The position numbers and the translations under genes are program-made. Positions 5,157 to 36,763 of a DNA stretch of 64,000 bases are shown piece by piece. The stretch is from the NCBI RefSeq assembly GCF_037975245.1, contig NC_092583.1:1638264-1702263 (forward strand), in the 5' to 3' direction. This DNA comes from Apostichopus japonicus. Its lineage: Eukaryota; Echinodermata; Holothuroidea; Aspidochirotida; Stichopodidae. Under the pieces are notes generated by a model. That model saw only the letters and a program-made list of their open reading frames with translations, did no database searches and was not told where the DNA came from. Numbering within the stretch: the stretch's first letter is position 1; every line of letters starts with the position of its first letter.

Positions 5157-5164
5157 ACTATAAG

Positions 5165-5820: not shown

Positions 5821-5828
5821 ACTACAAG

Positions 5829-6212: not shown

Positions 6213-6216
6213 GTTC

Positions 6217-13205: not shown

Positions 13206-13486
13206 TTACAAATGTAACATCTCCCTAAAGAAGTTCGGTTTCTCTTAGCTGTTGGCGGCTTTGCTCATCACGAGCATTACTCTAGCCTAACTTAAAACTA
13301 CCTTTTTCTAGCTAAGTAATACCTAGTTACATAATTGAAGGTCACATACTTTTACATGAAACTTTTGGAAGGTACTAGCATAGTTTATACTTAAGTAGTT
13401 ACTTTGCTACAAAGGACGAGGAGATGGGGGGGGGGGGGCGTTTAGACCGAATTACTAGAAAATCTGTATAGCAATCTTTAATACTG
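13206..13486. other. Spacer with G-run
   Basis: Unassigned. A run of G occurs at about 13426-13438. Confidence 0.4.
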
Positions 13487-16096: not shown

Positions 16097-16134
16097 GGGA
16101 CGTATGGCAAGCCGTTTTAACATTTACCTCTCTA

Positions 16135-16560
16135 TTCTACTTAAGTAGAATTAATTCCACTTAAGTAGAATACAATTAAGCTTAAGTGAAATTAATTGCA
16201 CTTAAGTAGAATTGCATTTTACTTAAGCTTAATTGTATTCCACTTAAGTGGAATTTATATTAGCTTAAGTTCAAACGGTTTTTGTCTACATCGTATTTTA
16301 CTTAAGTAAAATACAATTCTACTTAAGTAAAATACAATTCTGCTTAAGTAAAATTCAATTCTACTTAAGTAAAATGCAATTCTGCTTAAGTAAAATTCAA
16401 TTCTACTTAAGTAAAATGCTATTCTACTTAAGCAAAATGGCTTTTCAATTTCACTTAAGCTAAATTGCATTTTACTTAAGTGAAATAGAATTACGCTTAA
16501 GTGAAATGTGATTGGTCAATCTATTTCACTTAAGTAAAATGCAATTTAGCTTAAGTAAAA
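16135..16560. repeat. CTTAAG palindromic array, outer left arm
   Basis: Tandem words of the form TTCTACTTAAGTAAAATGCA, each centred on CTTAAG, with a modal period of 21 bases (for example the 16300-16430 stretch). Flanks of each core are semi-palindromic (TTTTA/TAAAA, TTCTA/TAGAA). Confidence 0.95.
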
Positions 16561-16599
16561 TGTGATTGGTCAATCAGTATATGCTAATCATTGCGTCAC

Positions 16600-17440
16600 T
16601 GTACTTGCCGCGAAGTCCGACTCTGTATACTATTTTAGGTACCTCACCACGTGTTCATCCGCTCAATGGGTTTACCATTGTCCGAAAAGAGGTAAAAGTA
16701 CCTAACGTAAAGCTTCCTTAAGCATGTTATCATTTACTGTCATCGTTTTTTCTGCCTTTATATGAAAGAGCATAATTTTAAGTACAGATGGTGTGAAAAT
16801 ATGGAGGATCGAAGGTGATATAAACCATTTTAAAAATCTTTGGTTAAATGTTGATATTACTCCGAACGAGCATATGGAAGGGTTCAGTGTGATAAACTTG
16901 CTCCTATTCTAGCTCATAATCTAAACGGTCATGATATGGAAGTTTGCAAGAGCCATGATAGGCCACTAGAACACAGCTATCATGTGGTGGGTAGGATATA
17001 CCAGATGAAAACTTCTATCTATGCTTTGGCAGGTCTTGAAAGTGATGAGTTTAGTGTGTAAGTCAATGGAACAATTAATTGTGATACGAGACCTATAGAG
17101 TTATGTTCAAGACGTACTAGTTACGTAATCCTTTGCGGCCATTCCCCCATTCTGCGATACTTATCCAGCTTTCGTTGTGCATATACGAACATAACACCAT
17201 ACTTAGCAAATGAAGCAAAGCTATGTTTATCACTGAGTCTGAACGTTAGACATTTGGTAAATGCAGCCAGCCAATAAATCGTTGCAAACTGTTGCTGGTG
17301 CAGTTGGAAAAGCACTTTTGAGGGCAAGGGAAGGACTCCAACACGACATACCACCAATCAGTGGTACTAGTAGTAGAAGTATCACAAGGCATGGTACCAT
17401 GCATGTAAACATTGCCCCCAGACCAACCACTTCTCCGCAC
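16600..17440. other. Non-repetitive module inside the foldback (left copy)
   Basis: Single-copy-looking sequence between repeat arms, mirrored at 18490-19615. A plus-strand frame near 16927-17060 reads NGHDMEVCKSHDRP and HVVGRIYQMKTSIYALAG and then meets GTGTAAGT, a splice-donor-like sequence. It may be a captured host exon, but I do not recognise the protein. Short frames at 17121-17491 show no family match by eye. Confidence 0.4.
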
Positions 17441-17468
17441 GAGGTAAATGTTATAACGGCTTGCCATA

Positions 17469-18465
17469 TCCTTCAATTCCACTTAAGCTAAATTGTATTT
17501 TACTTAAGTAGAATTGAATTTTACTTAAGTAAAATGCAATTGTATTCTACTTAAGTAAAATACAATTCTACTTAAGTAGAATACAATTTAGCTTAAGTTA
17601 AATTCAATTTCACTTAAGCTTAATTGTATTCTACTTAAGTAAAATACAATTTTACTTAAGTAAAATGCATTTAGCTTAAGTGAAAAAGAATGACACTTTT
17701 ACTTAAGCTAAATTAAATTTTACTTAAGTAGAATTGTATTTTACTTAAGTAAAATACAATTAAGCTTAAGTGAAATTGAATTTAACTTAAGCTTAAAAGA
17801 AAGTGGTAATTTTACTTAAGTGGAATACAATTAAACTTAAGTAAAATGCAATTCTACTTAAGTGCAATTCATTTTACTTAAGCTTAATTGTATTCTACTT
17901 AAGTGCAATTCATTTCACTTAAGCTTAATTGTATTCTACTTAAGTGGAATTAATTCTACTTAAGTAGAATAGAGAGGTAAATGTTAAAACGGCTTGCCAT
18001 AGGGACTTCGCGTAAGTGAAATGAATTGCACTTAAGTAGAATACAATTAAGCTTAAGTAAAATGAATTGCACTTAAGTAGAATTGCATTTTACTTAAGTT
18101 TAATTGTATTCCACTTAAGTAAAATTACCACTTTCTTTTAAGCTTAAGTTAAATTCAATTTCACTTAAGCTTAATTGTATTTTACTTAAGTAAAATACAA
18201 TTCTACTTAAGTAAAATTTAATTTAGCTTAAGTAAAAGTGTCATTCTTTTTCACTTAAGCTAAATGCATTTTACTTAAGTAAAATTGTATTTTACTTAAG
18301 TAGAATACAATTAAGCTTAAGTGAAATTGAATTTAACTTAAGCTAAATTGTATTCTACTTAAGTAGAATTGTATTTTACTTAAGTAGAATACAATTGCAT
18401 TTTACTTAAGTAAAATTGAATTTTACTTAAGTAAAATACAATTTAGCTTAAGTGGAATTGAAGGA
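17469..18465. repeat. Central CTTAAG palindromic array
   Basis: About 1 kb of the same palindromic words. It is approximately a mirror image of itself around 17967, with about 80 bases near 17925-18001 unmatched. Those unmatched bases include a full element terminus (GAGGTAAATGTTAAAACGGC to 18001). Confidence 0.9.
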
Positions 18466-20081
18466 TATGGCAAGCCGTTATAACATTTACCTCGTGCGGA
18501 GAAGTGGTTGGTCTGGGGGCAATGTTTACATGCATGGTACCATGCCTTGTGATACTTCTACTACTAGTACCACTGATTGGTGGTATGTCGTGTTGTAGTC
18601 GTTCCCTTGCCCTCAAAAGTGCTTTTCCAACTGAATCAGCAACAGTTTGCAACGATTTATTGGCTGGCTGCATTTACCAAATGTCTAACGTTCAGATTCA
18701 GTGATAAACAAAGCTTTGCTTCATTTGCTAAGTATGGTGTTATGTTCGTAATACACAACGAAAGCTGGATAAGTATCGCAGAATGGGGGAATGGCCGCAA
18801 ATGGTTACGTAACTAGTACGTCTTGAACGTAACTCTATAGGTCTCGCATCACAATTAATTGTTCCATTGACTTACACACTAAACTCATCACTTTCAAGAC
18901 CTGCCAAAGCATAGATAGAAGTTTTCATCTGGTATATCATACCCACCACATGATAGCTGTGTTCTAGTGGCCTATCATGGCACTTGCAAACTTCCATCTC
19001 ATGACCGTTTAGATTATGAGCTAGAAGAGGAGCAAGTTTATCACACTGAACCCTTCCATATGCTCGTTCGGAGTAATATCAACATGTATGTATATGTGAT
19101 CTTCCCGCAAGCAGGAACTCGCGAAAGAAGCCATGCAGGCTTATAGACTCGCAAGCTGACCGAAGCCAATCTCTCGGCACACATCCATTTAACGTCCATG
19201 TCGGGAAGTTGTTATTGAACAACACCCTTGCCAGACGACACACATTGCTGTCGGCGGGGAATCGAACCGGGGATCTCATGACTGGGAGACGCCGGCGTTA
19301 ACCACTAGGCTATACACTCCGCCCTGCATTTAACATTTAACCAAAGATTTTTAAAATGGTTTATATCACCTTCGATCCTCCATATTTTCACACCATCTGT
19401 ACTTAAAATTATGCTCTTTCATATAAAGGCAGAAAAAACGATGACAGTAAATGATAACATGCTTAAGGAAGCTTTACGGTAGGTACTTTTACCTCTTTTC
19501 TGACAATGGTAAACCTATTGAGCGGATGAACACGTGGTGAGGTACCTAAAATAGTATACAGAGTCGGACTTCGCGGCAAGTACAGTGACGCAATGAGTAG
19601 CATATACTGATTGACTTATCACATTTTACTTAAGCTAAATTGCATTTTACTTAAGTGAAATAGACTGACCAATCACATTTCACTTAAGCGTAATTCTATT
19701 TCACTTAAGTAAAATGCAATTTAGCTTAAGTGAAATTGAAAAGCCATTTTGCTTAAGTAGAATAGCATTTTACTTAAGTAGAATTGAATTTTACTTAAGC
19801 AGAATTGCATTTTACTTAAGTAGAATTGAATTTTACTTAAGCAGAATTGTATTTTACTTAAGTAGAATTGTATTTTACTTAAGTAAAATACGATGTAGAC
19901 AAAAACCGTTTGAACTTAAGCTAATATGAATTCCACTTAAGTGGAATACAATTAAGCTTAAGTAAAATGCAATTCTACTTAAGTGCAATTAATTTCACTT
20001 AAGCTTAATTGTATTCTACTTAAGTGGAATTAATTCTACTTAAGTAGAATAGAGAGGTAAATGTTAAAACGGCTTGCCATA
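18466..20081. mobile_element. Right inverted copy of the CTTAAG foldback unit
   Basis: Starts TATGGCAAGCCGTTATAACA and ends with the reverse complement of the TATGG terminus. It mirrors 16103-17468 with scattered substitutions and differs mainly by the SINE inserted at 19086-19331. Confidence 0.85.
19086..19331 (-). mobile_element. tRNA-derived SINE inserted in the foldback right arm
   Basis: On the minus strand it starts GGGCGGAGTGTATAGCCTAG and has an A-box (TAGCCTAGTGGTTAACGCC) and a B-box (GGTTCGATTCC) at tRNA spacing. The left arm of the foldback lacks it, so the mirror copy gives the empty site. AACAT at 19081-19085 and 19332-19336 is the likely target duplication. Confidence 0.8.
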
Positions 20082-20143
20082 GGGGCGTAGAGTTGTAGGC
20101 GCGCGTTTTCATGCAGATGGGAACAATCTCAAGAAGTGATGGG

Positions 20144-20727
20144 TGCGTCATGTTCCCCGACGACTCGGTCGAGTTCGAGACCAGCCGCAGTTGGTTTCAT
20201 AGCACAATTGTACAATTGTTTAAGGCGTCCATACACACACACGCGTTATGATAGACCATAGATGGTATATATACAGGTGCGTATCCAGGGGGGCGTTGGG
20301 GACGCGCGCCCCCCGGGTAAGAAAAAGAGGAGAGAAAAAAAAGAGAAGAAAAAAGGAAAAAAGAGGGGAAAAAAAGAGGAGGAGGAGAGGAAGGAAGGGA
20401 AAAAGAAAAAGAAGAAAGAGAGAAAAGGGAGAAAAGGAGGGAGTAAAAGAAAAACGCGAAGACACCGGGAAGAGAAAGAGAAACAGTGACATCATTACAG
20501 CGCTGAAGGGTAGCCAGTGACGGATCAATGATTTCGTAAAAGTGTGACTCACCCTACCCCTTACACCGACAACTCCATTTTTTGACGTTTCCATTTTCCT
20601 CTCTCACTAATGATCTATAGCCTATATATACTATATATGGTCTATCATAACGCGTGTGTAGAATTGTGCTATGAAACCAACTGTGGCTGGTCTCGAACTC
20701 GACCGTGTCGTCGGGGAACATGACGCA
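20144..20727. repeat. Inverted-repeat element, about 90-bp arms, interrupted by a purine repeat
   Basis: Left arm from TGCGTCATGTTCCCCGACGA to about 20262 pairs with the right arm from about 20636 to 20727 (ending TCGTCGGGGAACATGACGCA). The arms include TATGGTCTATCATAACGCG. The loop contains a separate repeat (20278-20515). No clear target duplication was found. Confidence 0.75.
20278..20515 (+). repeat. Dispersed polypurine element with 'GCGTATCCAGGG' head
   Basis: Head GCGTATCCAGGGGGGCGTTG, then CCCCCCGGGTAAGAAAAAGAGG and about 150 bases of A/G only. The same unit lies inverted at 47526-47745 (its complement ends CCCTGGATACGCGCCTGAG). Long open frames through the purine tract are compositional artefacts. 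Confidence 0.75.
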
Positions 20728-20734
20728 TTTTGGG

Positions 20735-21055
20735 ATGGGGGAGACCGCCAGCCCCCCCCCCCCCCATTCAGCATTTTTTTAGATGATATCGCTAAGTAAT
20801 TTCAAAATAGAAAGTGCTTAGATGCAACTTACAAGGCCTGGGAAGTGTCATTTCCAGCGATCTGGGAGACCAAAATTTGCTTGTACGCTTCGCGCTAACA
20901 AATGGTCCTGGGTAGTGCCATTTCCAGCGATCTGGGAGGCATTTTCGGCCAAAATTTTCTTGTACGCTTCGCGCCAACCTATGGTGGCGCTACGCTTAGA
21001 TAATTTGCCTACAGGCTTCGCCCCTACCTTGGCAAATTCCTCGCTACCCTCGTGT
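20735..21055. mobile_element. Nonautonomous element of the GCGTAGC group
   Basis: Nearly the reverse complement of 40941-41193, sharing AAGTGCTTAGATGCAACTTA, GGAGGCATTTTCGGCCAAAA and GGCTTCGCCCCTACCTTGGC. It has an internal partial duplication ('GCGATCTGGGAG' twice) and a C-run at the left. Confidence 0.7.
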
Positions 21056-21408
21056 TCGAATTTGTAACGCAAACAGCAGATATCACATCATATCAGTGAG
21101 CATGAAAATGGCGTTCCAGGATGAAAAGCCTCAAAACTGTCCGACTTGCCTGAAAAAATAACCAAAAATTTTCGCGCGCTTTGCGCGCGTTCAACGTCTT
21201 CATGTCAATATCATATAGCAAGCATCGGTTATTACATCTCATGCCATCATGTACCGTTCGGTCCGTTCAAATTGCGCAGTATACCGCGGGATGCTAATGT
21301 AAACAACGACATGTCTCATGTAGATGTATAAAAAACATGGAGGTCCAATTATGTCAAAACTCTCTTTTACATTAGTAATGGCGAATTAGGGGCTGCACCC
21401 CCGCCGCG

Positions 21409-21790
21409 CAGTGGCGGAGCGTCCATACGGTCAGGGGGCGGATGCCCCCCCCCCCCTGACGGACTCAAATGGACTGCTGGTGCCTTTTTCAGCTCTTTAC
21501 CACTTTTTACTTATTCTAGATTATTGACTTTTTTATTGCGCTCTCATCTACTTATTGACATTTCTCACATTTTGTTGGTGTAATTTGGCGATGACACCTT
21601 ATTCTTCGTTTATCTGCAAATTAGCCAGGCCCGGAAAGGGTCATTTCCGGCGATCTAGGGAGTATCTTTACTCAAAAAATTTCTGTACGCTACGCGCCAA
21701 CCAGTGGTGGCGCTCCGCTTAGATAGTGTCGAAAGCGCCCCTACAGACCATTCTCGCCCCTCCTGACCAATACCCCTAGCTCCGCCACTG
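21409..21790. mobile_element. hAT-like nonautonomous element with perfect 8-bp target duplication
   Basis: Ends CAGTGGCGGAGC / GCTCCGCCACTG are flanked on both sides by CCGCCGCG (21401-21408 and 21791-21798). It is 382 bases long. It holds a C-run and the shared module CTGTACGCTACGCGCCAAC...GGTGGCGCTCCGCTTAGATAG. No coding capacity. Confidence 0.88.
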
Positions 21791-21798
21791 CCGCCGCG

Positions 21799-22489
21799 CC
21801 TCCTACGCCTATGTGTGTAGTGTTCGGTTTTCGGAAATATCTGCTATTTTTTCATTTCCTTCAACCAAGTTTTATAATAGCCGTTATAAGAGGTTTTAAT
21901 ATTTCTACACCAATAAATTAACTGTGTCTGAATTTTCGAAAATTTCTGACCAACATTCTGCATCACACTTCCCTCTACTCGTGCAATTTTGACCGGTCTG
22001 TTAGGGGTTGAAGGAAGTTTTTCTATATTTGTTGTCCATAGATGACATTTTGTACAACATTATGGGTATGTTTTCAAGTGAGTTTATTCACGAGAAATGT
22101 GAATTTTCAAATTCTAAACAAATACGGGGCTTAAAACCTTGAAAAGTGGGGCTCACGGGTATTGTGGGCCGCGACGTAGAATCACCTACAAAAGCAAAGA
22201 CCCACAGGAGATGCGATCAGGTCGAACATGATGTGTGCCGGGTTGACAATCTTCAAAAAGGTTATGGATGGGAAAAAACTATTAGGAAATACTTGGTTCT
22301 CAGGCAAAAAGTGTACATCTGGTTGGTCATTTCAAGCCTGAGAAGTTCCGTTTCCGGTGATCTGGGGGGTATCAAAACCAGAAATTTTCTTGTACGCTGC
22401 GCGCCAACCGTCCGATTAGTATGGTACGTGTTTGGTTTATCTGCTTCTTGATGCATATGCAGATACAACAATGAAAATACACGATACGG
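21799..22489. other. Spacer with a shared-module fragment
   Basis: AT-rich and unassigned up to about 22320. At 22330-22415 a fragment of the CTTGTACGCTGCGCGCCAAC module occurs without visible element ends. Confidence 0.5.
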
Positions 22490-22514
22490 CCTGCCTTGGG
22501 TACACGTTGTCAGT

Positions 22515-22850
22515 CCGACACGTTTTCAGTCCGAAAATAAAATACACGTTTTTAGTCCGAAAAAACGAGTTTTCAGTCCGACACGTTTTCAGTCCGAAAA
22601 TAAAATACACGTTCTCAGTCCGAAAAAACGAGTTTTCAGTCCGACACGTTTTCAGTCCGAAAATAAAATACACGTTTTCAGTCCGAAAATAAAATACACG
22701 TTTTCAGTCCGAAAATAAAATACACGTTTTCAGTCCGAAAATAAAATACACGTTTTCAGTCCGAAAAAAACGAGTTTCAGTCCGACACGTTCTCAGCCCG
22801 AAAATGAAATCCACGTTCTCATAAAATCCACGTTCTCAGTCGGAGCTTAA
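22515..22850. repeat. CAGTCCG minisatellite, left arm
   Basis: Units of 16, 26 and 21 bases, all starting CAGTCCG, form a 63-base higher-order period, followed by pure 26-base units (CAGTCCGAAAATAAAATACA plus CGTTTT). Confidence 0.95.
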
Positions 22851-23109
22851 ATATATTCTGTTCATTATATATATAGGCCTATATATTATTAAATTATCAT
22901 ATATATATATATATTTATATATACACATATATATATTCATTTGCCTTTGTCGTTTACCTCCATTGCATTAACATAAAGTCTGTTCAAAGTATCTCTTTCG
23001 AGATCCGGCTTTAGGAATCACAAATGATTTTCGAGTTGGATAGCATCATGTTTGATCTCTAGAGTAGGGCAAAATATGTCACCAAAAACAGAACTAGTAT
23101 TGTTCGATA

Positions 23110-23300
23110 TAGGTGACAAACGCCTACAGTGGAATTACGATCTTCCTTACCGGTTTCGAACCTCTGGACATACAATCAGCGTCCATAGCCTAGTGGTTAG
23201 GGTGTCCGCGTGCAGAGCGGGAGGCCCGTGGTTCGAATCCCGGTGGAGGCTGAAAGTTTTTTCACTGTTCTTGATTTTCCAACTCATTACGATTTTCATT
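23110..23300 (+). mobile_element. tRNA-derived SINE, family 1
   Basis: Contains CATAGCCTAGTGGTTAGGGT (A-box) and GTGGTTCGAATCCCGG (B-box), with a tRNA-like acceptor pairing (AGCGTCC / GGAGGCT). A shared tail follows: GCTGAAAGTTTTTTCACTGT, then a (TA)n tract. Near-identical copies lie at 34332-34470 and 34503-34700. Confidence 0.85.
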
Positions 23301-23634
23301 TATATATGTATATATATATTTATATATGTTGTTTCGGATAGAATAAGCTGAGGAAAAGGTGAAGAAAGTGTTTTCCCTCAAGGCAGTATGCTGTTTGCTA
23401 ATTAATTTTTATACTCATATCCAGGTCTCGCATAAACCCCATGGGAGTCCGTGCACGGAGGGGGGGGGGGCGGGGGTAACCATTCCCTACATGCGCATGT
23501 ATACGTTACGTTCGATTTATATCTGTAACAGCAGAAAACCTCCCCGTTTATACCGCGTATTATGTTGAGTTTAATTATTGCCTGTTGAATCACTTGAATG
23601 GCCAATATATATGAACATTTCTGTCTCAATAGAT

Positions 23635-24181
23635 CCGTGGTTTTCAACCTTGGGCTCGCGGGCCCATTTGGGCCCGCGAAGCCGATTTTGTGGGCTCACG
23701 AGCATTGCCCCAGTAATGATTAAAAATTGTGGCATTTTGGGGGGCTGGTGGCGAAGGCACATGATGATGTTTCTTAGGAAGCCTCTTCGATGAAACCTTG
23801 TACAACGGGTAAAATTTACTCAACCCTAACCCTATAAGACTAGTATAAGAGAATTCGGTGACTCCCACCAACCACTGCACACTACGTATTTACCAAGGTT
23901 ATGATGTGTGGAAGCCTTGCTTTGTACCATTGCCTTGTACCATTGAGGGTTGCAAGAAATCTTTGAGATAGGCTCTAATTGGGCAGTACCTGTCATCTGA
24001 TCACGGAGGAACATACATAGCTATGATTGAGTCCCCGGGTCACCTGTGTCAAGAATACACTAATAAACGCTGTGAAATTGATTTTATGAAGTTGATAACT
24101 TTGCAGGGTAGGGTATGGGCTCGCGAGGACGGCTCGGAAGACGAATTGGGCTCGTGATCGAAAAAAGGTTGAAAACCAAGG
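23635..24181. mobile_element. hAT-like nonautonomous element
   Basis: Ends CCGTGGTTTTCAACCTT and AAGGTTGAAAACCAAGG, flanked by CAATAGAT on both sides (23627-23634 and 24182-24189). The GGTT(T/C)TCAACC terminus is typical of hAT elements. 547 bases, no transposase. Confidence 0.88.
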
Positions 24182-24714
24182 CAATAGATACATCTTACTG
24201 AGAGTACAAAGGCCGCACACGTGAGTTTGGAATCGATTATCTCTAAACACCATAAAAGACAATTAAAAGGAACAACAAAGGGTTTCTTATCGTCATGTGT
24301 TTCTTTAAACTGATCATTGTGTACAAATTATCAATCTTGATAGAAGCAACCACGGCTTCAAAATTCTACATTATTAAAAAAAAAAGTCGGTCGCTTCAAG
24401 ATTATTACTACCTCATAAAAAAATCATAGCCCGAGTTTAATTCATTTTGTGCGATTACTGATTTTTAATTGTTCCTCTTGTAAACATATAAGAAGAAATG
24501 AACCATAATCCTCGGCTCCTCGGTCGAAGAGTCTTGTCAAGTCAAACATAACGTTACGTTAATAAATGAATCAATTATTGCTTGCCAGTGTTTAACGACA
24601 AGGCTTTCTTATAGCCTTTTCTGAATTGCATACAAGATGACGGTTGTATTATTGCTTATACGTATTGTAGAAGATGTAGAAAGAAAAGTATCGTATATGA
24701 ACAAGATTATCGAG

Positions 24715-24835
24715 TTCGAGGGCGAGGGCGAGGGGGATATAAGAGGGTGAGAAGGGGGTGAGGGGTGTAAGAGGGGAGAAGGGGGTGAGGGGGTGCACGA
24801 GGCCGAGAAGGGGTGAGGGAGTGTCCAAAGTTACA
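24715..24835. repeat. G-rich purine minisatellite
   Basis: Degenerate repeats of GAGGGNGAG and GAAGGGGGTGAGGGG over about 120 bases, a candidate G-quadruplex-forming tract. Confidence 0.7.
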
Positions 24836-25231
24836 TCAGTTAAATGTTTGCTTTATAATCATTGCATTTAGAGGTCTTTATGATCACATTTTCAAACGGT
24901 CACGCCCCACCCTCCACCGTATAATAATAATAATATCCCTGCTCCTAGTATCCCTGCTCCTAGTAGAATGTGTCAAATTGTAAAAATAACAATTTACCTA
25001 GTTTGACGTCAGGTCTACGAGTCTATGTGTGAGTCTGAAGGTTCAGTTTATGGATGGAGGGGGGGGGGGGGGTGACTTCCAACGGCAGTGGCACACTTAA
25101 CTTTGGTATGAAGGGGAAAACCACAAAATCACCTAAAACTGCCCCAACAAAGTGGACCTTCTGTGCATTTTGTACTACATATTCAAGTATTTGAATGTTG
25201 TTTTATTAAATTGCAAAAATTGCACACAAAA

Positions 25232-25235
<4 letters not shown>

Positions 25236-25272
<37 letters not shown>

Positions 25273-25377
25273 TATATACATATATATATATACACACACA
25301 TATATATATATATACACACACACATATATATATATATATTTATATATATATACACACACACACATATATATTTATAT

Positions 25378-25460
<83 letters not shown>
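25236..25460. repeat. TA/CA compound microsatellite
   Basis: Alternating (TA)n and (CA)n blocks over about 225 bases after an A-run. Open frames through it are spurious. Confidence 0.98.
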
Positions 25461-25799
25461 TGACTCATAATTGACAAATAAGGAGTAAAGTTTTAGAAAA
25501 TATATTGAGACCTTCGTCAGCAATACTTGGCAGTCGAATGAAAAGTACAAAATGTAACACAATGAAAGTATGACGCTAGGTAAGTGTAAATTGCATTGAT
25601 GGAATTAGAACCAAATAAACCATGACTATACAGGAAGCGGATTAAGGAGCAAAGAACGGATTACATATGTTTGTAACTGATAGTTGTTAAGGGGTTGAGG
25701 CCGGTGATGTGAGACATAATACGAAAGATTCAATCGATTTTTTTACTATCAGTTCGGGCTGTCACCGTTTATTGGTGGTATTATGGCATTAAAACTGCA

Positions 25800-25955
25800 T
25801 GCTTTCATTCTCCAACTGAAAACGTGTATCTCATTTTCGGACTGAAAACGTGTATTTCATTTTCGGACTGAAAACGTGTATTTCATTTTCGGACTGAAAA
25901 CGTGTATTTTATTTTCGGACTGAAAACTTGTCGGACTGAAAACTTGTCGGACTGA
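25800..25955. repeat. CAGTCCG minisatellite, right arm (inverted)
   Basis: TTTTCGGACTGAAAACGTGT repeated about five times. This is the reverse complement of the 22515-22850 units. Confidence 0.93.
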
Positions 25956-26056
25956 GGGGTGTACCCCCCTGCCTTATACTGTATCAAACAGAACAATGCA
26001 TCCAATCGATTTATGGTAGAGAATTTGTGAAACCGCAATGAACAACCCTCATCTGT

Positions 26057-26092
26057 TGATCAGGGAGGTGATATTTTAGACCTCCCTGATCA
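26057..26092. repeat. Short perfect hairpin
   Basis: Stem TGATCAGGGAGGT / ACCTCCCTGATCA with a 10-base loop. The CAGGGAG arms resemble another short hairpin at about 53403-53441 (CAGGGAGTTG / CAACTCCCTG). No clean target duplication. Confidence 0.7.
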
Positions 26093-26220
26093 GTCGCTGT
26101 TCATCCTCCAATCAAACGACAGCAAAACAAGAATGAAAAAAACGCGCTTGTTTTCAAACGCGGTCAAAGCTGCTAACATGACAACAGGAGGGTTAATAAT
26201 GTGACCGCGAATAGCGTACG

Positions 26221-27176
26221 TATGGAAAGCCGTTTTAACATTTAATAAGGAATTTCAGATATCTCGAAATAATTTCAGATATCTCAAATTAAATTACAGA
26301 TATCTCCAATTTATTTAAGATATCTACAAATAATTGCAGATATCTTAAAATCAATTTCAGATATCTCGAAATACCAGGGAATTTCAGATATCTGAAATTG
26401 AATTCGAGATATCTCGAATTCAGTTTCAGATATCTCGAATTCAATTTCGGATATCTCGAATTCAATTTCAGATATCTGAAATAGAATTTTGGATATCTCG
26501 AATTCAATTTCAGATATCTCGAATTCAATTTCAGATATCTGAAATAAAATTTCAGATATCTCGAATTCATTTTCAGATATCTCGAATTCAATTTCAGATA
26601 TCTGAAATAGAATTTTAGATATCTCGAATTCAATTTCAGATATCTCGAATTCAATTTCAGATATCTCGAATTCAATTACAGATATCTGAAATTTCCCGAT
26701 TAAATGTTAAAATGGCTTTCCATACGTGCCATTTTAACATTTAATCGGAAATTTATGCATATGCATTTCAGATATCTCGAATTCAATTGCAGATATCTCG
26801 AATTCAATTTCAGATATCTCGAATTAGAATTGCAGATATCTTGAATTCAATTTCAGATATCTCGAATTCAATTTCAGATATCTCGAATTCAATTTCAGAT
26901 ATCTGAAATAGAATTTCAGATATCTCGAATTCAATTTCGGATATCTCGAATTCAATTTCAGATATCTGAATTACAATTTCAGATATCTCGAAATCTATTA
27001 TAGATATCTCGAATTCAGTTTCAGATATCTCGAATTGAATTTCAGATATCTGAATTAGAATTTCAGATATCTCTAAATCTATTTAAGATATCTCGAATTC
27101 AATTTCAGATATCTGAAATAAGAAACAATTTCAGATATCTAAAATTCCCGATTAAATGTTAAAATGGCTTTCCATA
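26221..27176. mobile_element. Foldback element, GATATC type
   Basis: Begins TATGGAAAGCCGTTTTAACA and ends with its approximate reverse complement (AAAATGGCTTTCCATA). It is flanked by CGTACG at 26215-26220 and 27177-27182, a perfect 6-bp duplication. An internal terminus pair at about 26707-26750 shows it is two units head to tail. The body is GATATC-centred words with a 21-base period (AATTTCAGATATCTCGAATT). Confidence 0.88.
26240..26690. repeat. GATATC palindromic array, first unit
   Basis: About 21 copies of a 21-base word centred on GATATC, with arms TTTCA/TGAAA or TTCGA/TCGAA in mixed combination. The second unit spans about 26760-27145. Confidence 0.95.
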
Positions 27177-27197
27177 CGTACGAAATGTATGGCTGAC

Positions 27198-27230
27198 CAT
27201 GGAGCTATAAACTCTGTTTATAGCTCCATG
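27198..27230. mobile_element. 33-bp hairpin insertion with 7-bp target duplication
   Basis: A perfect palindrome with arms CATGGAGCTATAAAC / GTTTATAGCTCCATG and a 3-base loop. GGCTGAC lies immediately on both sides (27191-27197 and 27231-27237). Related insertions lie at 31925-31950 and 54617-54647. Confidence 0.85.
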
Positions 27231-27239
27231 GGCTGACTA

Positions 27240-28415
27240 ATACTATATACGTTTGAAAGTAATAGTATACTCTTACTGAATTAGCGTCTGCTTTCTTATT
27301 GTTCTTTGTTTTCTTTTCACACGGGGAGGTTGTTTTCTCCTTTTATAATTTTCGCACACGTATCAGCGTTTGCTATACATTCTCTTATACCCCATTATGG
27401 GAGTATATGAACTGGAAAATTTCCAAAAGGATGGAGATCCTCCTGCGTGTGCATGTGCTTGCGGGTCGTGAGCATGAAATGATGGGTTAATGCCTAGAAA
27501 GCCACAGTTTTAGGGTAACATTAACAGCTCATATGTATAACACTGCTACCATTATGTGCATATGTAACACACTTATAGGGCGGTGATCCTGAAAACATAA
27601 CTTCAAAGCTAATACTTGCCCGTTGAGCAATTTGTCTGTGGCTAAATGGATGAAAGGTAGTCTGCATATGCCACAAATTATAGCACGCTATATATAACTG
27701 CCAGAAGTTTACAAACAAACTACCTTTCCGGAGGTCTTTACTCTTTTTTCTCATACTTTCTAAATTAACCACATAAAATGACTGAATGTTAATTTCCTCA
27801 AGGGTGGTAATACAAATACAATATTTGTTGTTTTTTTTTATCAAAGGTGACCATATTTGAATACCTGGTATATTAGGGGCCTAAACAGCAAACCTTTGGA
27901 GCGGGATATACTGGTTTTGTATTGGGGCGAAAATCTAAACAATTGCAAGTAAAAGATTCAAAGTAAAGAACATACTTTACCAAACACGTTTTACGAGGTA
28001 CAAAGTATATATTTATAAATTTGTAGTTAAGACGGTGCACTCTTTACTGCAGGAATGCGACAACTTAATAACGATTTTGCTCTCCCTTTCCTCTCTTATT
28101 CATTGCTGCAAATGTTTCTGTTGCAGCGATAGAAAGCAAGTGTAAAATAAATGACACATGTTGACGCCAGAAATGTGTTCCACGTTCATTTCTATTGTAA
28201 ATTTTCTATTGTAAATAATGTTATTGAACTCTGAATTCAAACATGGAAACGTTTTACAAACATTCACCTCAAAATTAGTGGAACAATGCCACGAAGATTA
28301 ATATATAGAATGAAAAACAACTTGTATATAGGGCCTATTGCTTACCGGCTAAAATTAACAAAAACATAATAACATTAAAATTAAAGTAAACATAGACAAC
28401 GTATACTGCACGCAG
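27240..28415. other. Unassigned spacer
   Basis: AT-rich with no recognised gene or repeat. An open frame at 27299-27490 has no family features. Confidence 0.4.
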
Positions 28416-28419
28416 CCGC

Positions 28420-30110
28420 GTACACTATACACACACATATATACATATTATCCGTATTGTGCCACGCTTAGGGAATTGTGCCCACGCTTGGGAAAGTATG
28501 ATTGAAATATATTAGGCTAGTTGTCATAAAAAACTGTTCTAAAATTTAACAATTTGGAAGGCATTACACCATGTACAAACGAGAAGGCCCTATGAGAAAA
28601 ATGCAAGTGAGACAAAAGCCTATACATCATATACTTTCTTATATTCTCTTTCAAACACTCCGACCCCCCCCCCCCCCTCACCCGTTTAATTTTCGAAGGT
28701 AATTACATTGCTACGGGAGAAGTTTGGGTGTCCAGTTAGGTTCAAAATTGATATATGCAACTAATATAGGTATAGAAGGATTAAAGTATGCTGTATTGGC
28801 CCATATATGCCATATATTCCAAAATGGTCACCCCTGGTCAATATTTTTAAACGGTTTATATTACCTCGTTGAAAAAAAAATACCTCACTGGACATTCAGT
28901 TATCTTTTGTGTTCATTAAGATTGTCTGAGAACAATTTGGAGAGCGAAGACCTCCAAGGGAGTATTTTTTGAACACTCCTAGCAATTATTGCTTGCTTAA
29001 TTTGCGGCCAATACAGTCCACAGATACAGTCACAGATACAGACATATGTACGATTAACATATAAACATAGACAACATATGTATAATGTACGCAGCCGCAT
29101 ACACTACACATATACATATTGGTTAACATGCATGTGTGACAGTAACTTTATTGTGCCCACGCTTTGCACTATTAAAGAAGCCTTTATATTACATACTTTC
29201 TTGAATCCTCTTTCCGACCCCGACCCCCCCCCCCCCGGACACATATACATATATACACATATACATATTGGTTAACATGCATGTGTGACAGTAACTTTAT
29301 TGTGCCCACGCTTAGGGGAATTGTGCCCACGCTTGGGAAAGTATGACTGAAATATAGTAGTCTTCACAGAAACTGTTCGAAAATTAAGCGATTGAGAAGG
29401 CATTTAAACCCAATACAAACGAGTAGACCCTTTAGGAACTGCACTATTTAAGAAGCCTATATATTACATACTTTCTTGAATCCTCTTTCCGACCCCCGAC
29501 CCCCCCCCCCCACGACACATATACATATATACACATATACATATTGGTTAACATGCATGTGTGACAGCAACTTTATTGTGCCCACGCTTAGGAGATTTGT
29601 GCCCACGCTTGGGAAAGTATGACTGAAATATAGTAGTCTTCACAGAAACTGTTCGAAAATTAAGCGATTTAGAAAGCATTTAAACCCAATACAACGAGTA
29701 GACCCTTTAGGAACTGCACTATTTAAGAAGCCTATATATTACATACTTTCTTGAATCCTCTTTCCTACCCCCGACCCCCCCCCCCCCACGACACATATAC
29801 ATATATACACATATACATATTGGTTAACATGCATGTGTGACAGCAACTTTATTGTGCCCACGCTTAGGAGATTTGTGCCCACGCTTGGGAAAGTATGACT
29901 GAAATATATTAGTCTTCACAGAAACTGTTCGAAAATTAAGCGATTTAGAAACCATTAAAACCCAATACAAACGAGTAGACCCTTTAGGAACTGCACTATT
30001 TAAGAAGCCTATATTTTACATACTTTCTTGAATCCTCTTTCCGACCCCCGCCCCCCCCCCCCCCCCGCGCCTCTTCATTTATTTTTCGAAGGTGTTGCAT
30101 ACGGGGAAGT
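28420..30110. repeat. 276-bp tandem repeat with poly-C tract in each unit
   Basis: GGTTAACATGCATGTGTGAC occurs at about 29121, 29270, 29546 and 29822. The last two spacings are 276 bases. Units share GTGCCCACGCTTGGGAAAGT and a run of 11-16 C after CTTTCCGACCCC. A diverged unit lies at 28420-28700, and a short related phrase (CCCACGCTT) recurs near 31970. Confidence 0.85.
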
Positions 30111-31105
30111 TTTGGTCTCCAGTTAGGTTCAAACCTTGTTATATGCAACTACACGTTAAAACTCAATACAAACGAGTAGACCCTTTAGGTACAATTCTAC
30201 ACTAGTATATATTACTATCATACTAAGTATGATTTATTGGTCCCATATATGCTACATAATAAATATGGTCACCTTATGTTAATATTCTTAAACTGTTTTA
30301 TTAACCACCTTGGAGGAAATTTACCTAACTGGGAAATTCAGTCATCTTGTTGTGTGTGTTTATAATGTCAGCGAACAATATGGAGAGTGAACACCTTCAG
30401 GAAAGGACTTTTTTGAAAACTTCCAGCAATTACAGCATGCCGTAATTTGGGGCCATTACATACTATTTTTGAGGAGTACACGTATTTGAACTCGAAGCCC
30501 CTCACCCCACAATCAATTTCCCCCTCCCTAAATCTATTACACCTGATTGACTCTGCGATCAATTTCATATATAGTTTGATGATACCTATACTTATTTTTA
30601 ATTTAACATAATATGTTGATTACATATATCAACTGAAAATTATAGTGGGGGATCATAACGAGGAAGAAACTGTACCCATCAGCTTTAGATTAAAATTGTA
30701 TATGTACGTTTATGAGTACGGAATTTCCGACTGTCGCACTCTAATTTTTCCGACTGTCGCACTCTAATTTTCATAGATTCTTGTTATTTGTGAGTGGCCT
30801 ACAATTTTCGGTCAAACTTGACCTTTAATCAGTCATATTTACCACGTTTTCCTTGTCATATTAAGAAATTGTATCTCGCGATTCTTATACTCCACCATAC
30901 AAAACTTCGTATGATTTTGAATACTCTAAAAAAAAATGCCTAATAAAACTACTGTACAACGTATACAATTAAAACGTTGAATGCTATTCTACGGAAGCTT
31001 AAAAGTGCCATCAACATAAGAAAAACTTTGCCCATAAGGTGAAATTTTTCAGTAAATTGTTAAAATAACAAGATAAAATCTTATCAAAAAAAAAACAGAA
31101 AAATA
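30111..31105. other. Unassigned spacer
   Basis: Mostly AT-rich. It contains a small direct duplication (TTCCGACTGTCGCACTCTAA twice at 30725-30770). No gene was seen. Confidence 0.4.
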
Positions 31106-31109
31106 TTGG

Positions 31110-31370
31110 ATCGATTAGTTGCTTAAACTGAGCAATTGAACAATTTTTGAAAAATGTTTAATTGACAACTTATCATATCTCGTGTATTGGGCATTTTGCT
31201 GCAAATTGTTCAATTGTTCACTTCATTCCATCTGAGCAATTGAACAATTTTCTGCAAAATGTTTAATTGGCAACTTATCGTATCTCGTCAACTCAACATT
31301 TTTCTGCAAAATGTTTAACTGTTCACTTCATTCCAAATGCTCAGTTGGAATGAAGTGAACAATTTAATTT
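31110..31370. repeat. AATTG-rich tandem/inverted array ending in a long hairpin
   Basis: About 120-base units with TGAGCAATTGAACAATTTT and TTATCRTATCTCG. The array ends in a hairpin GTTCACTTCATTCCAA / TTGGAATGAAGTGAAC with an 8-base loop at about 31320-31360. Confidence 0.75.
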
Positions 31371-31917
31371 TTTTTCATGTGAATGATAAATAGCCCCCCC
31401 CCCCCCCGCCCCCAAGAAAATAATATTAAGCGCGCTAGGAAAAAGCACTGTATTTTGGGGTAGTTCACTATGTCGTCGAATATAATTTGTTGAAAAAGAA
31501 AAGTTTTCCCCTTTGTTACATTAACATAGCTATTTTAGTTGGTAGTCTATGTAGCCTATAAAGCAGATAACTTATACTCATTGCTTACTCGCTAACCAGA
31601 GTGATTAATAAATTTGTGAAGTGAGGGCGAGTGGTACAAATGTACCGAAAAAAGTTCGGAACAAAAGTGCAGTCGCGAAAGATGGGGTGTCTGACTGACA
31701 CTGACCGTATCGTTGACGAGTAGGGTGTGGGGGGGGGGCGGGTTACAAGGCAGCAGTCGGAATTTTCTGGCTCCAAAACCCATCCAGTTGGAATTTCAGC
31801 CACTACAACTCCCCACCCCCCTCTCAATCATCAGGCCTTAGCTACGTCCCTGTGTACGTAAACGACGTTCATTACTGTTAAGTTTTTACGGGACTTTATA
31901 GTACTAATTAATACTAC
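31371..31917. other. Spacer with C- and G-runs
   Basis: C-run near 31394 and G-run near 31730. Short minus-strand frames at 31585-31827 overlap a dispersed repeat-like region ('ttagctacgtccctg') and are not called as genes. Confidence 0.4.
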
Positions 31918-31924
31918 GTGCGAC

Positions 31925-31950
31925 CGTGGAGCTCTGTTCATAGCTCCATG
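31925..31950. mobile_element. 26-bp hairpin insertion with 7-bp target duplication
   Basis: CGTGGAGC...GCTCCATG, the same family as 27198-27230 but with seven bases lost near the loop. It is flanked by GTGCGAC at 31918-31924 and 31951-31957. Confidence 0.82.
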
Positions 31951-32038
31951 GTGCGACGAAGACTTGTACCCACGCTTATATAGAAATTCTACCCAAGCTT
32001 GGCAAAGTATGACAAGTAAATCGCAAATCCAACACATA

Positions 32039-32115
32039 TATACCGGTGCTATGGCAGAGTGGCGGATAAAGGCGGTGGCGTTTGGAAGCAATGCGGGTTT
32101 CTCCCACATTTGTGG
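32039..32115 (+). repeat. Possible tRNA-derived SINE head
   Basis: TATGGCAGAGTGGCGGATAA fits an A-box of the serine/leucine tRNA type. The B-box region (GCGGGTTTCTCCC) is degraded. The tail runs into an ATT-rich stretch. Confidence 0.35.
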
Positions 32116-32662
32116 TCGCTTAAGCGTCGTGAAAATAACTGCTGATTATTATTACTATTATAGCATTAAAAAAATGTAGTAGTTTGAAAGATTATTGAAC
32201 TTTCAAGATTTATATATATAGGTTTACTTGAGTATTCACAAATTCCAATCACAATCACGAGTATTCTTCCAATGCTCGCCCCACCCCTTCTTTTTTACGT
32301 CCTCTTCACTCATTATCGATTCATGGACAGAACTTGATAGTAATTTCTGATAAAATCTTCCTCAGTTGCATCCTATATGTAAACTGAATGTTCCGCTGTT
32401 TGCACATATGTCGAAAATGATTTATATCGCTTGAGAAAATAAGCATTATGCAAAAATTGGCATATTCACGTGTGGTGTTTGTAAAAATCACGCACCTATA
32501 TGCAAATATATCATAGCTAAGATTGTCCTGTGTCCGTTATATAATTCCATTAAAGAAATGCATACCTGAGACACGGACGTATTATCCTGTGAGGGTACCG
32601 TAATACATTCATGCTTGAGACACATGCAAGTCTTAAATAAACAGAATAGCAAGTCCCAAACA

Positions 32663-32697
32663 TATAGACCTTCCTTACCGGTTTCGAACCTCTGGAC
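32663..32697 (+). mobile_element. SINE family 1, left piece, split by the foldback insertion
   Basis: CCTTCCTTACCGGTTTCGAA...CTGGAC matches the lead sequence of the SINE copies at 23140 and 34540. It continues on the far side of the foldback at 34332. Confidence 0.8.
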
Positions 32698-34331
32698 TAT
32701 GGAACGCCAAAAGGACCACAGTGACATGTACCACTACTAATTTGACATGTACTACTACTAATTCGAAGTGTACTACTACTAATTTGAAGTGTAATACATG
32801 TAAAATGTCGCGTACTACTACTAATTCGAAGTGTACTACATCTAAAATGTCGCATACTACTACTAATTCGAAGTGTAATAATACTAATTTGAAGTGTACT
32901 ACATCTAAAATGTCGCGTACTACTACTAATTCGAAGTGTACTACATCTAAAAAGTCACGTACGACTACTAAATTGGAGAGATGGCGCTATTCACAATCTT
33001 TCCGATACCATGTCATCGAGTTGCGCATCTGCATTAAAATAATGATGAAGAAAACATTCTTCAATACTCTGTTGATTCAAATGTCTATTTTACATTTTAT
33101 ACCTTTAAGGTCTGTGGCAAATATAGAAAATAGCATATAGTTAGGCACAGCTGGGGAATCAAAAGCATTCTTGACATTTCAACGACGGGGAAATTGCTGC
33201 TTGTGAATAATAGTGTGTATAACAATTTTAAGAGTTAAAAACTGGTGTATTATATATGTAAAAAACTCGATGGACATGTCAAGAAAAAATAGAAAACGGC
33301 CCCCAAACGCAAAATGCTGCTTTACATTCAGAAAAGACCGGTGAGGTGCTAATGTTAATGAGCTAAAGTTAGGCTTCCTAGACTTTTTCTATATGCTAGG
33401 CCAGGCTGCGGCTAGGATATAGTGTCTAATTTAAATGATATTCCAAAACTGCTACTTGTTTAAATTATATACAGGTCTAGTACCGTATGCATTTTAGGTG
33501 TTCTACAAATGGCCTGAATATAGGCCTACTATAGTACTAGGTCATGGATTAATTCCGAGCATAACTTAAGAGCCCAAATGTATACGTTACCGTTTAAATT
33601 TAGATTTTGGCACAGTAATGTGTGTATATGCAGAGCTTAGTATGCGTAGAATTAGGAGTATATATGTACGTGTCAGTCTTCCTGAATGTTCCCCTTCTCC
33701 TTGCCTTCATTACTAATACTATAATCACTATTATCTGTGACCATTGGGCATCACAAAAATAAAATCCAGTGGTGGCAAAGCAACAAGTTTTCGAAGCCCC
33801 AGCAGGTGGAACCATCGATCCCCAAGAATGTGCTTAATGTAGCTTCAGTTTTTAACTCTTAAAATTGTTATATACGTTATTATTCACAAGCAGCAATTTC
33901 CCCGTCGTTGAAATGTCAAGAATGCTTTTGATTCCCCAGCTGTGCCAAACTATATGCTATTTTCTATATTTGCCACAGACCTTGAAGGTATAAACTGTAA
34001 AATAGACATTTGAATCAACAGAGTATTAAAGAATATGTTTTCTTCATCATTATTTTAATGCAGATGCGCATCTCGATGACATGGTATCGGAAAGATTGTG
34101 AATAGCGCCATCTCTCCAATTTAGTAGTAGTACGTGACTTTTTAGATGTAGTACACTTCGAATTAGTAGTAGTACGCGACATTTTAGATGTAGTACACTT
34201 CGAATTAGTAGTAGTACGCGACATTTTACATGTATTACACTTCAAATTAGTAGTAGTACACTTCGAATTAGTAGTAGTACATGTCAAATTAGTAGTGGTA
34301 CATGTCACTGTGGTCCTTTTGGCGTTCCATA
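32698..34331. mobile_element. Foldback element with TACTACTACTAATT arms
   Basis: Termini TATGGAACGCCAAAAGGACC and its reverse complement, flanked by CTGGAC at 32692-32697 and 34332-34337. It sits inside a SINE whose uninterrupted copies (near 23160 and 34560) read CCTCTGGACATACAATC, proving insertion. Arms of about 550 and 490 bases are near-identical inverted repeats, made of TACTACTACTAATTCGAAGT-type tandem words outside and unique sequence inside. The 600-base loop includes a fragment (about 33258-33330) of the TTAA element family seen at 53104-54454. Confidence 0.92.
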
Positions 34332-34467
34332 CTGGACATACAATCAGCGTCCATAGCCTATAGTGGTTAGGGTGTCCGCGTACAGAGCGGGAGGCCCGTG
34401 GTTCGAATCCCGGTGGAGGCTGAAAGTTTTTTCACTGTTCTTGATTTTCCAACTCATTACGATTTTC

Positions 34468-34470
<3 letters not shown>
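34332..34470 (+). mobile_element. SINE family 1, right piece
   Basis: Resumes at CTGGACATACAATCAGCGTC and carries the A-box (with a 2-base duplication, CCTATAGTGG), B-box and tail. A (TA)n tract follows. Confidence 0.85.
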
Positions 34471-34498
<28 letters not shown>

Positions 34499-34502
34499 TA
34501 TA

Positions 34503-34693
34503 TAGGTGACAAACGCCTACAGTGGAATTACGATCTTCCTTACCGGTTTCGAACCTCTGGACATACAATCAGCGTCCATAGCCTAGTGGTTAGGGTGTCC
34601 GCGTACAGAGCGGGAGGCCCGTGGTTCGAATCCCGGTGGAGGCTGAAAGTTTTTTCACTGTTCTTGATTTTCCAACTCATTACGATTTTCATT

Positions 34694-34700
<7 letters not shown>
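34503..34700 (+). mobile_element. SINE family 1, full copy
   Basis: From AGGTGACAAACGCCTACAGT through the A-box, B-box and tail to a (TA)n tract at about 34693-34735. It lies in direct orientation next to the previous copy. Confidence 0.87.
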
Positions 34701-34734
<34 letters not shown>

Positions 34735-34739
34735 GATGT

Positions 34740-36190
34740 TCCATATATATATATATAGTAAATAAACATACATAAGTGCCGTAATAAAGGCAAAAATAGA
34801 GCGCCCACATTACAATACGTGGTACACACAGCGAAATCCATGTGCATGTGCCGGATCAAGGGAATGGTTTTATTCTCCAATATAGTTATATATATGAAAC
34901 GAATTTTCTGAAAATTATTGCAAACTACATCTAGATCAAGTAACGTTAAATACACAAGTGATGTTTAATATGTTGAATGTCAAAAATGGAATGTAGTTAT
35001 ATCATTACGCTGTTGACATGGAACTGAATAAAATAAAAAATTAAATACTGCCGCATTTTGAAGAGTGTCAGACTTTCAAACCTTTTAAAATGATAACTCG
35101 TATTAAATTTGTAGTTGATGTGGGTCTCTGAAAAATATAGCAAGAATGTGTTTGTGATTACTGTCAAAAAGGCGTGATATACTGAATAACATGTAAATAT
35201 CAAATGCTATTGTCACTGTGACACGCTTCACATTGGTTAATTGTTTATTGTAAGATTCCAGCTACTATATGATCACTGAGTCAAAGCATGGTTAAATGAT
35301 CGACAAACTGCTATATTCAGTTTCCTCCGACTTTAACATAAGTTCACGAGATCGTCAACAAGTTTTAGCAGCGGCAGTTCACGTTTCCATACATATTTGA
35401 ATTTAACTGCCTTTTGTTGCTGGACCGTAGAATTCGGAAATATCAATGTTGGATGCTAACTACGGAGCTACAGAAGCGTAGAAAGGACATTGTACCGTGG
35501 AGGTTTTTACCTCCATGATTGTACTAACAAATTTATGAACTAGTAGAACGTAATGATAATATAATAATTGCAGTTTCCATGAACTGATATGTAAAAAGAA
35601 TCGCTTTGCGTTGAAGACTTTTCGAAGACAAGACACAAAAAAAAAACTATGGCTTGGAGGATTCACACTGAATACATAGCATCGCACAATTTTTTTTCAC
35701 TTGAAATCCAATCGAGTTTTCCCTTTGCTGTTTGCGCCAAGTTAGCTTCCGAGAACCCGCGACGTTTAAATGAGCATTTACAATAATTAGGGTACTTTAA
35801 TTAGACCTCCTTTAACACTATATTGGGGACCCGATGCAACCATGTGGTGCACCCCACCCACTCGCCCCCCCCCCTCGTCAGGTTCCCCAATGTGTGGTAA
35901 ACTTAACTGTTAATGCAAAGAATCGTTATCCGTTAATTTTAATTGGAAAGTTAGGTGATCGAGTAACACATTGACATCTCATGGATACAACATTTGCCCC
36001 TAAACTGATCCAGAATGGTCGTAGAATTCATCTAATATTACAGATGAGTCATATTTTGGATATTTGTGGATTCTCCTTCTATCCAACTATATGTACCCCC
36101 TCCCAGTTTAGTCCTGAAATAGAAATTAAAATATAATTAGCCGGTTCCTTTGTGATGCCGTTTTTGCTGCTTTAGAAACGGTCGGGTCCA
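34740..36190. other. Unassigned spacer
   Basis: AT-rich with no recognised gene. Near 35478 the phrase CAGAAGCGTAGAAAGGACAT resembles the start of the 52-bp minisatellite element at 12695. Confidence 0.4.
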
Positions 36191-36199
36191 GAATAGCTA

Positions 36200-36470
36200 T
36201 TTAGAGGATTTATTTAAAAACGGGGATAGTGGTGGGTGGGGGGGGGGGGGCACAAGCCTCGGAACTGGGATATCGAACAATCGGTACTCAATGTCAGGCT
36301 TCAAAAACCTCGGCTTAACTTTGTCGGTCATAGCGGCGCAAATCCATATTTGAGATTTAAGTAATTTTTGCTTAAATTTTGTGCGAAACTTTTTCCAACC
36401 TCCTACCCCATGCCCCCTGCCCCCTTCCCCCTCCCCCCGTTTCAAATGCTCCTCTTACGATTCCCATTGT
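36200..36470. repeat. G-rich / C-rich flanked short region
   Basis: A G-run at about 36233-36250 and C-rich blocks at 36400-36440 bound 150 bases, so the region is partly inverted. Short frames in it are compositional. Confidence 0.4.
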
Positions 36471-36577
36471 CCATATCCTTTTTCATAGATTAGTCGAGAT
36501 AGATTTCAACAGTCCGTTTTTTGCTCTGCCGATTTCTCTCAATATGCCGTCAAGTGATATTCGAAGAAGTATACTCA

Positions 36578-36763
36578 TATGGCAAGCCATGTGGGACAAA
36601 CACTGCATAATATATCAGCGTAATATTCGTAATTTATACGTGTATTAATTGGAATATATACGCGTATATATTATTAGCCAATCATATGGCCGAAATATAT
36701 ACGCGTATTAATTCGAATATATACACGTATTAATTCGGTGTTTGTCCCACATGGCTTGCCATA
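36578..36763. mobile_element. Small foldback element, ACGCGT type, 186 bp
   Basis: Termini TATGGCAAGCCATGTGGGAC and its reverse complement, flanked by TACTCA at 36572-36577 and 36764-36769. The interior has repeated ATATACGCGTAT and TATACACGTATTAATTCG palindromic words. It is the smallest member of the TATGG foldback group. Confidence 0.9.

Follow-up and report, generated by a model that had tools for sequence, protein, structure and literature searches.

Four sea cucumber transposable elements with IS3EU-type ends, two of them carrying candidate binding-site arrays in a common register around different core words

We analyzed a 64,000-nucleotide stretch of the genome of the sea cucumber Apostichopus japonicus (NCBI RefSeq assembly GCF_037975245.1, contig NC_092583.1, positions 1,638,264 to 1,702,263 of the forward strand), called the window below and numbered from its first letter. 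The window contains four elements that start with TATGGMAMGCC and end with its complement: the CTTAAG element (E1), the GATATC element (E2), an element that splits a short interspersed element or SINE (E3), and an element resembling a miniature inverted-repeat transposable element (E4). From their ends and target duplications, we file them as putative non-autonomous transposons of the IS3EU type. The reading that we favor, with a probability of about 0.62, is that a DDD/E transposase of the IS3EU class, encoded at another locus, mobilizes them, and that they carry family-specific arrays of candidate binding sites. The superfamily is ordinary; what is unusual is the change, in register, of the core word of a whole array between E1 and E2, which by comparison of their repeat units are sister families.

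E1 (16103..20081; 3,979 bp) is a foldback element in the form of an inverted dimer, with 1,797 of 1,829 aligned nucleotides shared between its arms. E2 (26221..27176; 956 bp) is a direct tandem dimer. E3 (32698..34331; 1,634 bp) has arms of 21-bp units with TACTACTA (477 of 489 aligned nucleotides identical) and a unique centre of ~600 bp, and E4 (36578..36763; 186 bp) is made of 22-bp units with ACGYGT words. The termini are TATGG..CCATA in all four elements, and the first 24 nucleotides of the left and right ends agree at 23 positions in E2 and at all 24 in E1, E3 and E4. Four elements with these ends and positions had been described in an earlier reading of the letters alone (the sequence-only reading), which our comparison bears out. 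The inverted ends are long in E1 and E3, extend over ~37 nucleotides with 4 mismatches in E2 and measure 26 bp in E4.

The flanks are GGGACG and GGGGCG for E1 (5/6 identical), and CGTACG (E2), CTGGAC (E3) and TACTCA (E4), each matching 6/6. When flank lengths of 3-10 were compared, a full match was found solely at 6 in E2, E3 and E4, and at no length in E1. The window-wide chance of 6/6 flanks at the same distances was 0.0002-0.004 per element. A scan of the window for pairs of TAYGG ends (spacing 60-6000 bp, agreement at 17 or more of the 24 end positions) returned 15 pairs. Four were E1-E4 themselves, four were sub-pairings within E1 and E2, three were mirror points of palindromes with inverted rather than direct flanks, and four lay within a separate palindromic array near 55.6 kb. 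First-order Markov replicates (n = 30) gave 0-3 end pairs each, with flanks left unscored. Inverted pairs with exact 12-nucleotide ends numbered 7,635, and 193 of them, E3 and E4 included, had 6/6 flanks; among the matches listed, 39 of 40 such pairs fell in the E1 palindrome, and most of these had a self-complementary flank, CTTAAG for example. Because the E1 palindrome yields many pairs of this kind, self-complementary flanks were discounted as proof. The clean cases of target duplication are E3, with its empty sites, and E4.

E3 is a true insertion with a 6-bp duplication, as its empty sites show. It splits a tRNA-type SINE into a 5' piece ending in CTGGAC (32670..32697, + strand; 28/28 identical to 23142-23169 and 34535-34562) and a 3' piece starting with CTGGAC (34332..34497, + strand). 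Joined with a single CTGGAC, the flanks reconstitute the sequence of two uninterrupted SINEs of the window, at 23139..23247 (+ strand; 96.4% over 111 columns, 31 to the left and 80 to the right of the joint) and at 34532..34640 (+ strand; 97.3% over 111 columns). A search of the window for empty sites of E1, E2 and E4 found none. Note that tRNA-Cys-like SINE copies lie at 23107-23327 and 34332-34727, one of them being that split by E3. Within E3, positions 33258-33330 resemble, by reading, part of a Kolobok-like foldback near 54146-54210.

Target duplications measure 8-10 bp in MULE and Foldback elements, 7-8 bp in P and Galileo elements and 8 bp in TU elements. These groups were rejected, as none of the four elements showed a full flank match at 7-10 bp. 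TTAA-type elements (piggyBac, Kolobok) and Tc1/mariner were rejected as well, the flanks GGGACG, CGTACG, CTGGAC and TACTCA being neither TTAA nor TA duplications. The sea-urchin TU group, proposed by the sequence-only reading as the nearest layout, resembles E1-E4 in its echinoderm host and its inverted arms of tandem repeats, but makes 8-bp instead of 6-bp duplications; IS3EU fits in its place. IS3EU and GingerRoot elements are DDD/E transposons related to IS3 and IS481. According to published descriptions, IS3EU elements always have TA..TA ends and usually make 6-bp duplications (PMC10045372). Rust-fungus IS3EU families have TAYGG..CCRTA ends, 6-bp duplications and terminal inverted repeats (TIRs) of >30 bp (PMC12730594), and the active fungal element Styx combines 6-bp duplications with a transposase pointing to IS3EU (PMC10853768). 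Oyster satellites related to IS3EU are listed in PMC8268682, PMC5753468 gives IS3EU by name only, and Apostichopus and IS3EU both occur in PMC9587614. Since both 6-bp duplications and TAYGG..CCRTA-type ends, which include TATGG..CCATA, are published for IS3EU, E1-E4 probably belong to this type. They differ from it in that the copies are without transposase and have long arms of 21-bp dyad arrays, absent from the IS3EU descriptions that we compared. The earlier suggestion of one transposition machinery holds at the level of one class, which is well supported by the common 11-bp ends and 6-bp duplications; one enzyme or several may serve the four families.

Of 95 listed open reading frames (ORFs) of at least 75 amino acids (complexity-filtered), 69 were scanned for protein families, together with one sulfotransferase ORF, at E up to 0.5 in one scan and 0.01 in the others. 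The ORFs of the E1 and E3 bodies matched no family above cut-off. Matches to a nematode chemoreceptor model (E 0.015) and to UL141 (27524-27880; E 0.0057) were below cut-off and taken as chance. A protein search with the ORF at the E3 end gave 597 candidates, 0 at E 0.001, and one with the reading frame of the E2 array gave 7 matches, all to short-unit repeats. P0121, P0122 and P0127 have a 7-residue period with R-Y-L, which at the protein level only would suit 21-bp GATATC units. The 24-nucleotide end, searched in viral contigs, had 0 matches.

The left copy of E1 contains 43 CTTAAG words and E2 contains 39 GATATC words, spaced mostly at 21 bp, behind a common 24-bp end that is alike at 23 of 24 positions. 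Words start 37, 57, 78 and 98 from the end at both outer ends of E1, at the inner E1 end at 18001 and at the left end of E2, so that irregular 20-21-20 steps are common to the E1 ends and the left end of E2. The three E1 ends count as one comparison, because they are copies of one another. A match of three spacings is by itself weak evidence (0.173, given the spacing frequencies of both arrays); the value for 20, 21, 20 specifically is 0.005.

The 15-bp linkers between the words show the same register. Anchored on the words, they had a mean in-register identity of 0.644 between E1 and E2, the best of 42 rotations and orientations (dyad mirror 0.639, next 0.439, median 0.308). This comparison was based on 24 and 19 distinct 21-bp units, taking only those bounded by exact words. 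None of 2000 column permutations (13 and 16 linkers) reached the observed identity. Conserved and variable linker positions also coincided (Pearson 0.77, 15 positions, permutation p 0.0008), and in the first four units 33 of 56 linker letters were alike, as against 8 of 24 hexamer letters. In both arrays the unit combines an 18-bp dyad, ATTNNR-word-YNNAAT, with 3 further bp, and exceptions at the outer letters are few. The six word positions had zero entropy in E1 and E2, and linkers reached up to 1.46 bits at a position. Note that the zero is not independent evidence, because solely 21-bp units bounded by exact words were counted. However, in three arrays checked separately (19, 23 and 39 exact words), no word with one mismatch was found 20-22 bp from an exact word, out-of-phase one-mismatch hexamers numbering 2, 5 and 1.

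A common ancestry of all four arrays was not supported. In a best-rotation test of the six consensus pairs, p was 0.018 for E1-E2, 0.016 for E3-E4 and at least 0.38 for the other four, and neither low value stands after correction. The kinship of E1 and E2 therefore depends on the in-register tests. In E4, the units are 22 bp long, with ACGYGT as their word. E3 has a 21-bp array without a palindromic core, and its unit as a whole is not a palindrome, contrary to the palindromic units that had been described throughout. On present alignments, no relationship between the E3 or E4 bodies and the other arrays could be demonstrated. The notion of interchangeable satellite bodies thus needs revision: E1 and E2 are in register with the core word alone changed, and for E3 and E4 a relationship is not demonstrable.

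Both E1 and E2 are dimeric and contain additional element ends in their interior (17468, 18001 and 18466 in E1; 26724 in E2), a structure overlooked in the sequence-only reading. The left copy of E1 (16103..18001, + strand) has both ends and is followed by GGGACT, which is 5/6 like the left flank. The right copy (18010..20081, - strand) is inverted and lacks its inner terminal stretch, seen as a 69-nucleotide gap when the arms are aligned. It also contains an insertion of 251 nucleotides that the left arm does not have (approximately 19086..19336, - strand; visible as an alignment gap). By our reading this insertion resembles a tRNA-derived SINE, although neither ARAGORN nor Rfam called a tRNA in it. 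An additional internal end lies in the left arm (17445..17468, - strand), with its mirror copy beginning at 18466. The CTTAAG words form an outer array (approximately 16140..16555), with words continuing at 119 from the end, and inner arrays (17481..18462) that are broken by the end at 18001 and additionally show a 131-bp period. The 32 differences among 1,829 aligned arm positions, together with the one-sided insertion, rule out a mirrored assembly error for E1.

In E2, the first copy (26221..26724, + strand) has both ends, and the second (26728..27176, + strand) is truncated at its inner end; in a direct match of 423 columns the two copies are 86.3% identical. The junction CGTGCC (26725..26730) is what would remain after an 11-bp deletion running from a middle CGTACG into the end that follows. 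One facing end is missing at the middle of both dimers. Such a loss would be expected if head-to-head ends form an unstable palindrome. Long arms and dimers may have arisen through the repeats, through second insertions beside an existing copy and through trimming where two ends met in such a palindrome.

We propose that the terminal 11 bp, TATGGMAMGCC, would serve as the end for cleavage and strand joining, with a target cut staggered by 6 bp giving rise to the duplication. The arrays behind the ends would be family-specific arrays of binding sites. As 21 bp correspond to two helical turns, the transposase or a partner could use a dimeric DNA-binding domain to load along a single face of the helix. 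With a constant end and a changeable word, related enzymes could share their chemistry while each mobilizes its own copies. We favor binding sites over a neutral minisatellite because the words are intact in the arrays checked while the linkers drift.

By analogy, the E1 and E2 arrays look like protein-binding arrays, as shown for Galileo, a P-superfamily element of Drosophila in which tandem repeats within the long TIRs contain sites bound by its THAP domain; the same paper states that such repeats in Foldback and Phantom elements were not yet assayed (PMC3688188). Galileo shares with E1-E4 the foldback-like long TIRs, the tandem repeats with multiple transposase sites and a terminal sequence (~40 bp) common to families and followed by family-specific TIR. 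It differs in its ends, its superfamily and its layout, with three THAP sites near 70, 561-577 and 701-718 bp from the end (PMC3688188) versus an unbroken array of 21-bp dyads here. Tetris and DAIBAM of Drosophila virilis have only the outer part of the TIR in common, one of them with tandem repeats in its foldback arms. However, these repeats are 220 bp long, and no in-register change of a core word is described in the abstract (PMC4079207).

Tentatively, and with the odds somewhat against it, we suggest that IS3EU elements may carry an address in two parts, namely the cutting end, which is constant, and a long array of dyad sites whose core word can be rewritten array-wide (CTTAAG to GATATC, perhaps ACGYGT in E4) with spacing, register and AAT/ATT contacts kept fixed. 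One changed DNA-binding domain plus one word would then suffice for a new specificity and for mutually blind sub-families within a genome. If the arrays are the address label of an enzyme, E1 and E2 would record a change of specificity across dozens of sites with the geometry kept. It would then be possible, using one binding domain and a pair of short DNAs, to test the long-standing question of why kilobase arms of short repeats persist in foldback elements. In addition, an unusual echinoderm foldback family would be placed in IS3EU, with TATGG-type ends as a key for genome-wide searches.

Several observations weigh against the favored reading. At the right end of E2, a word at 37 is followed by a 26-bp step, and at its inner end the words start at 38, both without the 20-21-20 series. 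The E4 words lie 35 and 57 from the right end versus 60 and 82 from the left. E3 is without a dyad word, making it the element for which binding sites are least convincing. The check for broken words covers words 20-22 bp apart, so that units at odd steps (26-37 bp) fall outside it. Complementarity of the variable NN arm positions within units was not significant in E1 or E2 once multiple testing was allowed for (lowest p 0.043); the dyad rests, for this reason, on its fixed positions. The three perfect 6-bp duplications of the sequence-only reading stand as scores, but the E2 flank CGTACG is its own reverse complement and could equally extend the inverted repeat, and the E1 flank matches at 5/6. 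The 26-bp inverted ends of E4 fall below the TIR length of the fungal IS3EU set. Finally, no transposase family was detected in 69 of the 95 listed ORFs of the window and one sulfotransferase ORF.

The ends might derive from another superfamily with 6-bp duplications, namely hAT6, Polinton-derived elements or an undescribed DDE lineage converged on TATGG. We consider this unlikely. hAT ends fit YARNG and Polintons end in AG..CT, and TATGG..CCATA agrees with neither. The ORFs scanned in the window yielded no transposase that would settle the superfamily, and a 6-bp duplication is reported for Polinton (PMC10045372), whereas exactly TAYGG..CCRTA plus 6 bp is stated for IS3EU (PMC12730594). A 6-bp hAT6 group is named in the reference list of the latter paper. 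The earlier argument that 6 bp speaks against Tc1, TTAA-type and hAT enzymes is accordingly sound for the first two and weaker for hAT. The arrays could also be by-products, that is, minisatellites grown by slippage in foldback arms, with words homogenized by recombination and the E1/E2 register due to recent common descent. Foldback elements such as Tetris do breed tandem repeats (PMC4079207), and the 131-bp period of the inner E1 arrays would suit this origin. Yet homogenization would level linkers and words alike, whereas the linkers vary and the arrays checked showed no in-phase word with one mismatch, and neutral descent leaves an array-wide word change with kept linkers unexplained. We regard a by-product origin as somewhat unlikely.

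A further reading takes the words not as transposase sites but as targets of an architectural, replication or silencing protein of the host, or as DNA that forms cruciforms; it appears quite improbable. Dyads spaced by two turns suit many dimeric proteins and long arms can fold back; however, a host factor is not expected to switch its site between sister families of one genome, and the lack of significant NN complementarity argues against a hairpin requirement at the level of the unit. Copy-out circles and tandem intermediates are known in bacterial IS3 elements, and sequence like the outer flanks is found at the middle junction of both dimers (GGGACG/GGGACT/GGGGCG in E1, CGTACG/CGT-/CGTACG in E2). 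It is nevertheless very unlikely that these middles are remains of such intermediates. The matches are small, 5/6 and 3 bases; the E2 copies are only ~86% alike, and the E1 copies are inverted, unlike the product of simple circles. Moreover, the middle of E1 has the 10-mer GGACTTCGCG in common with E1's own body, which makes a flank copy at this site uncertain.

Other features of the window include a 26-bp GTTTTCAGTCCG unit that forms two arrays in inverted orientation (22502-22821 and 25803-25955), 3 kb apart and possibly parts of another array-ended element; the end-pair scan found no TATGG pair framing them. A reverse-transcriptase-like ORF fragment lies at 13472-13792 (RVT_1, E 3.1e-05), its score of 24.2 bits falling short of the curated cut-off, 29.6. 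A second foldback at 53106-54455 has TTAA-type flanks and the ends AGCAGCATTTTGCG..CGCAAAATGCTGCT, which in our reading of the flank is Kolobok-like; its empty site is the paralogous stretch at ~8458-8463. At 54756-56717, ~1.96 kb are present in one paralogue only, with a palindromic 36/72-bp GGTAAATTTACC array at ~55485-56187. The window holds two galactose-3-O-sulfotransferase-like gene copies; an Apostichopus japonicus entry matches the protein at 8990-10114 with 100% identity across 95% of the query. Both genes lie in a segmental duplication (2852-12075 / 44380-61639) with colinear pieces ~86-95% identical, which is useful for dating insertions.

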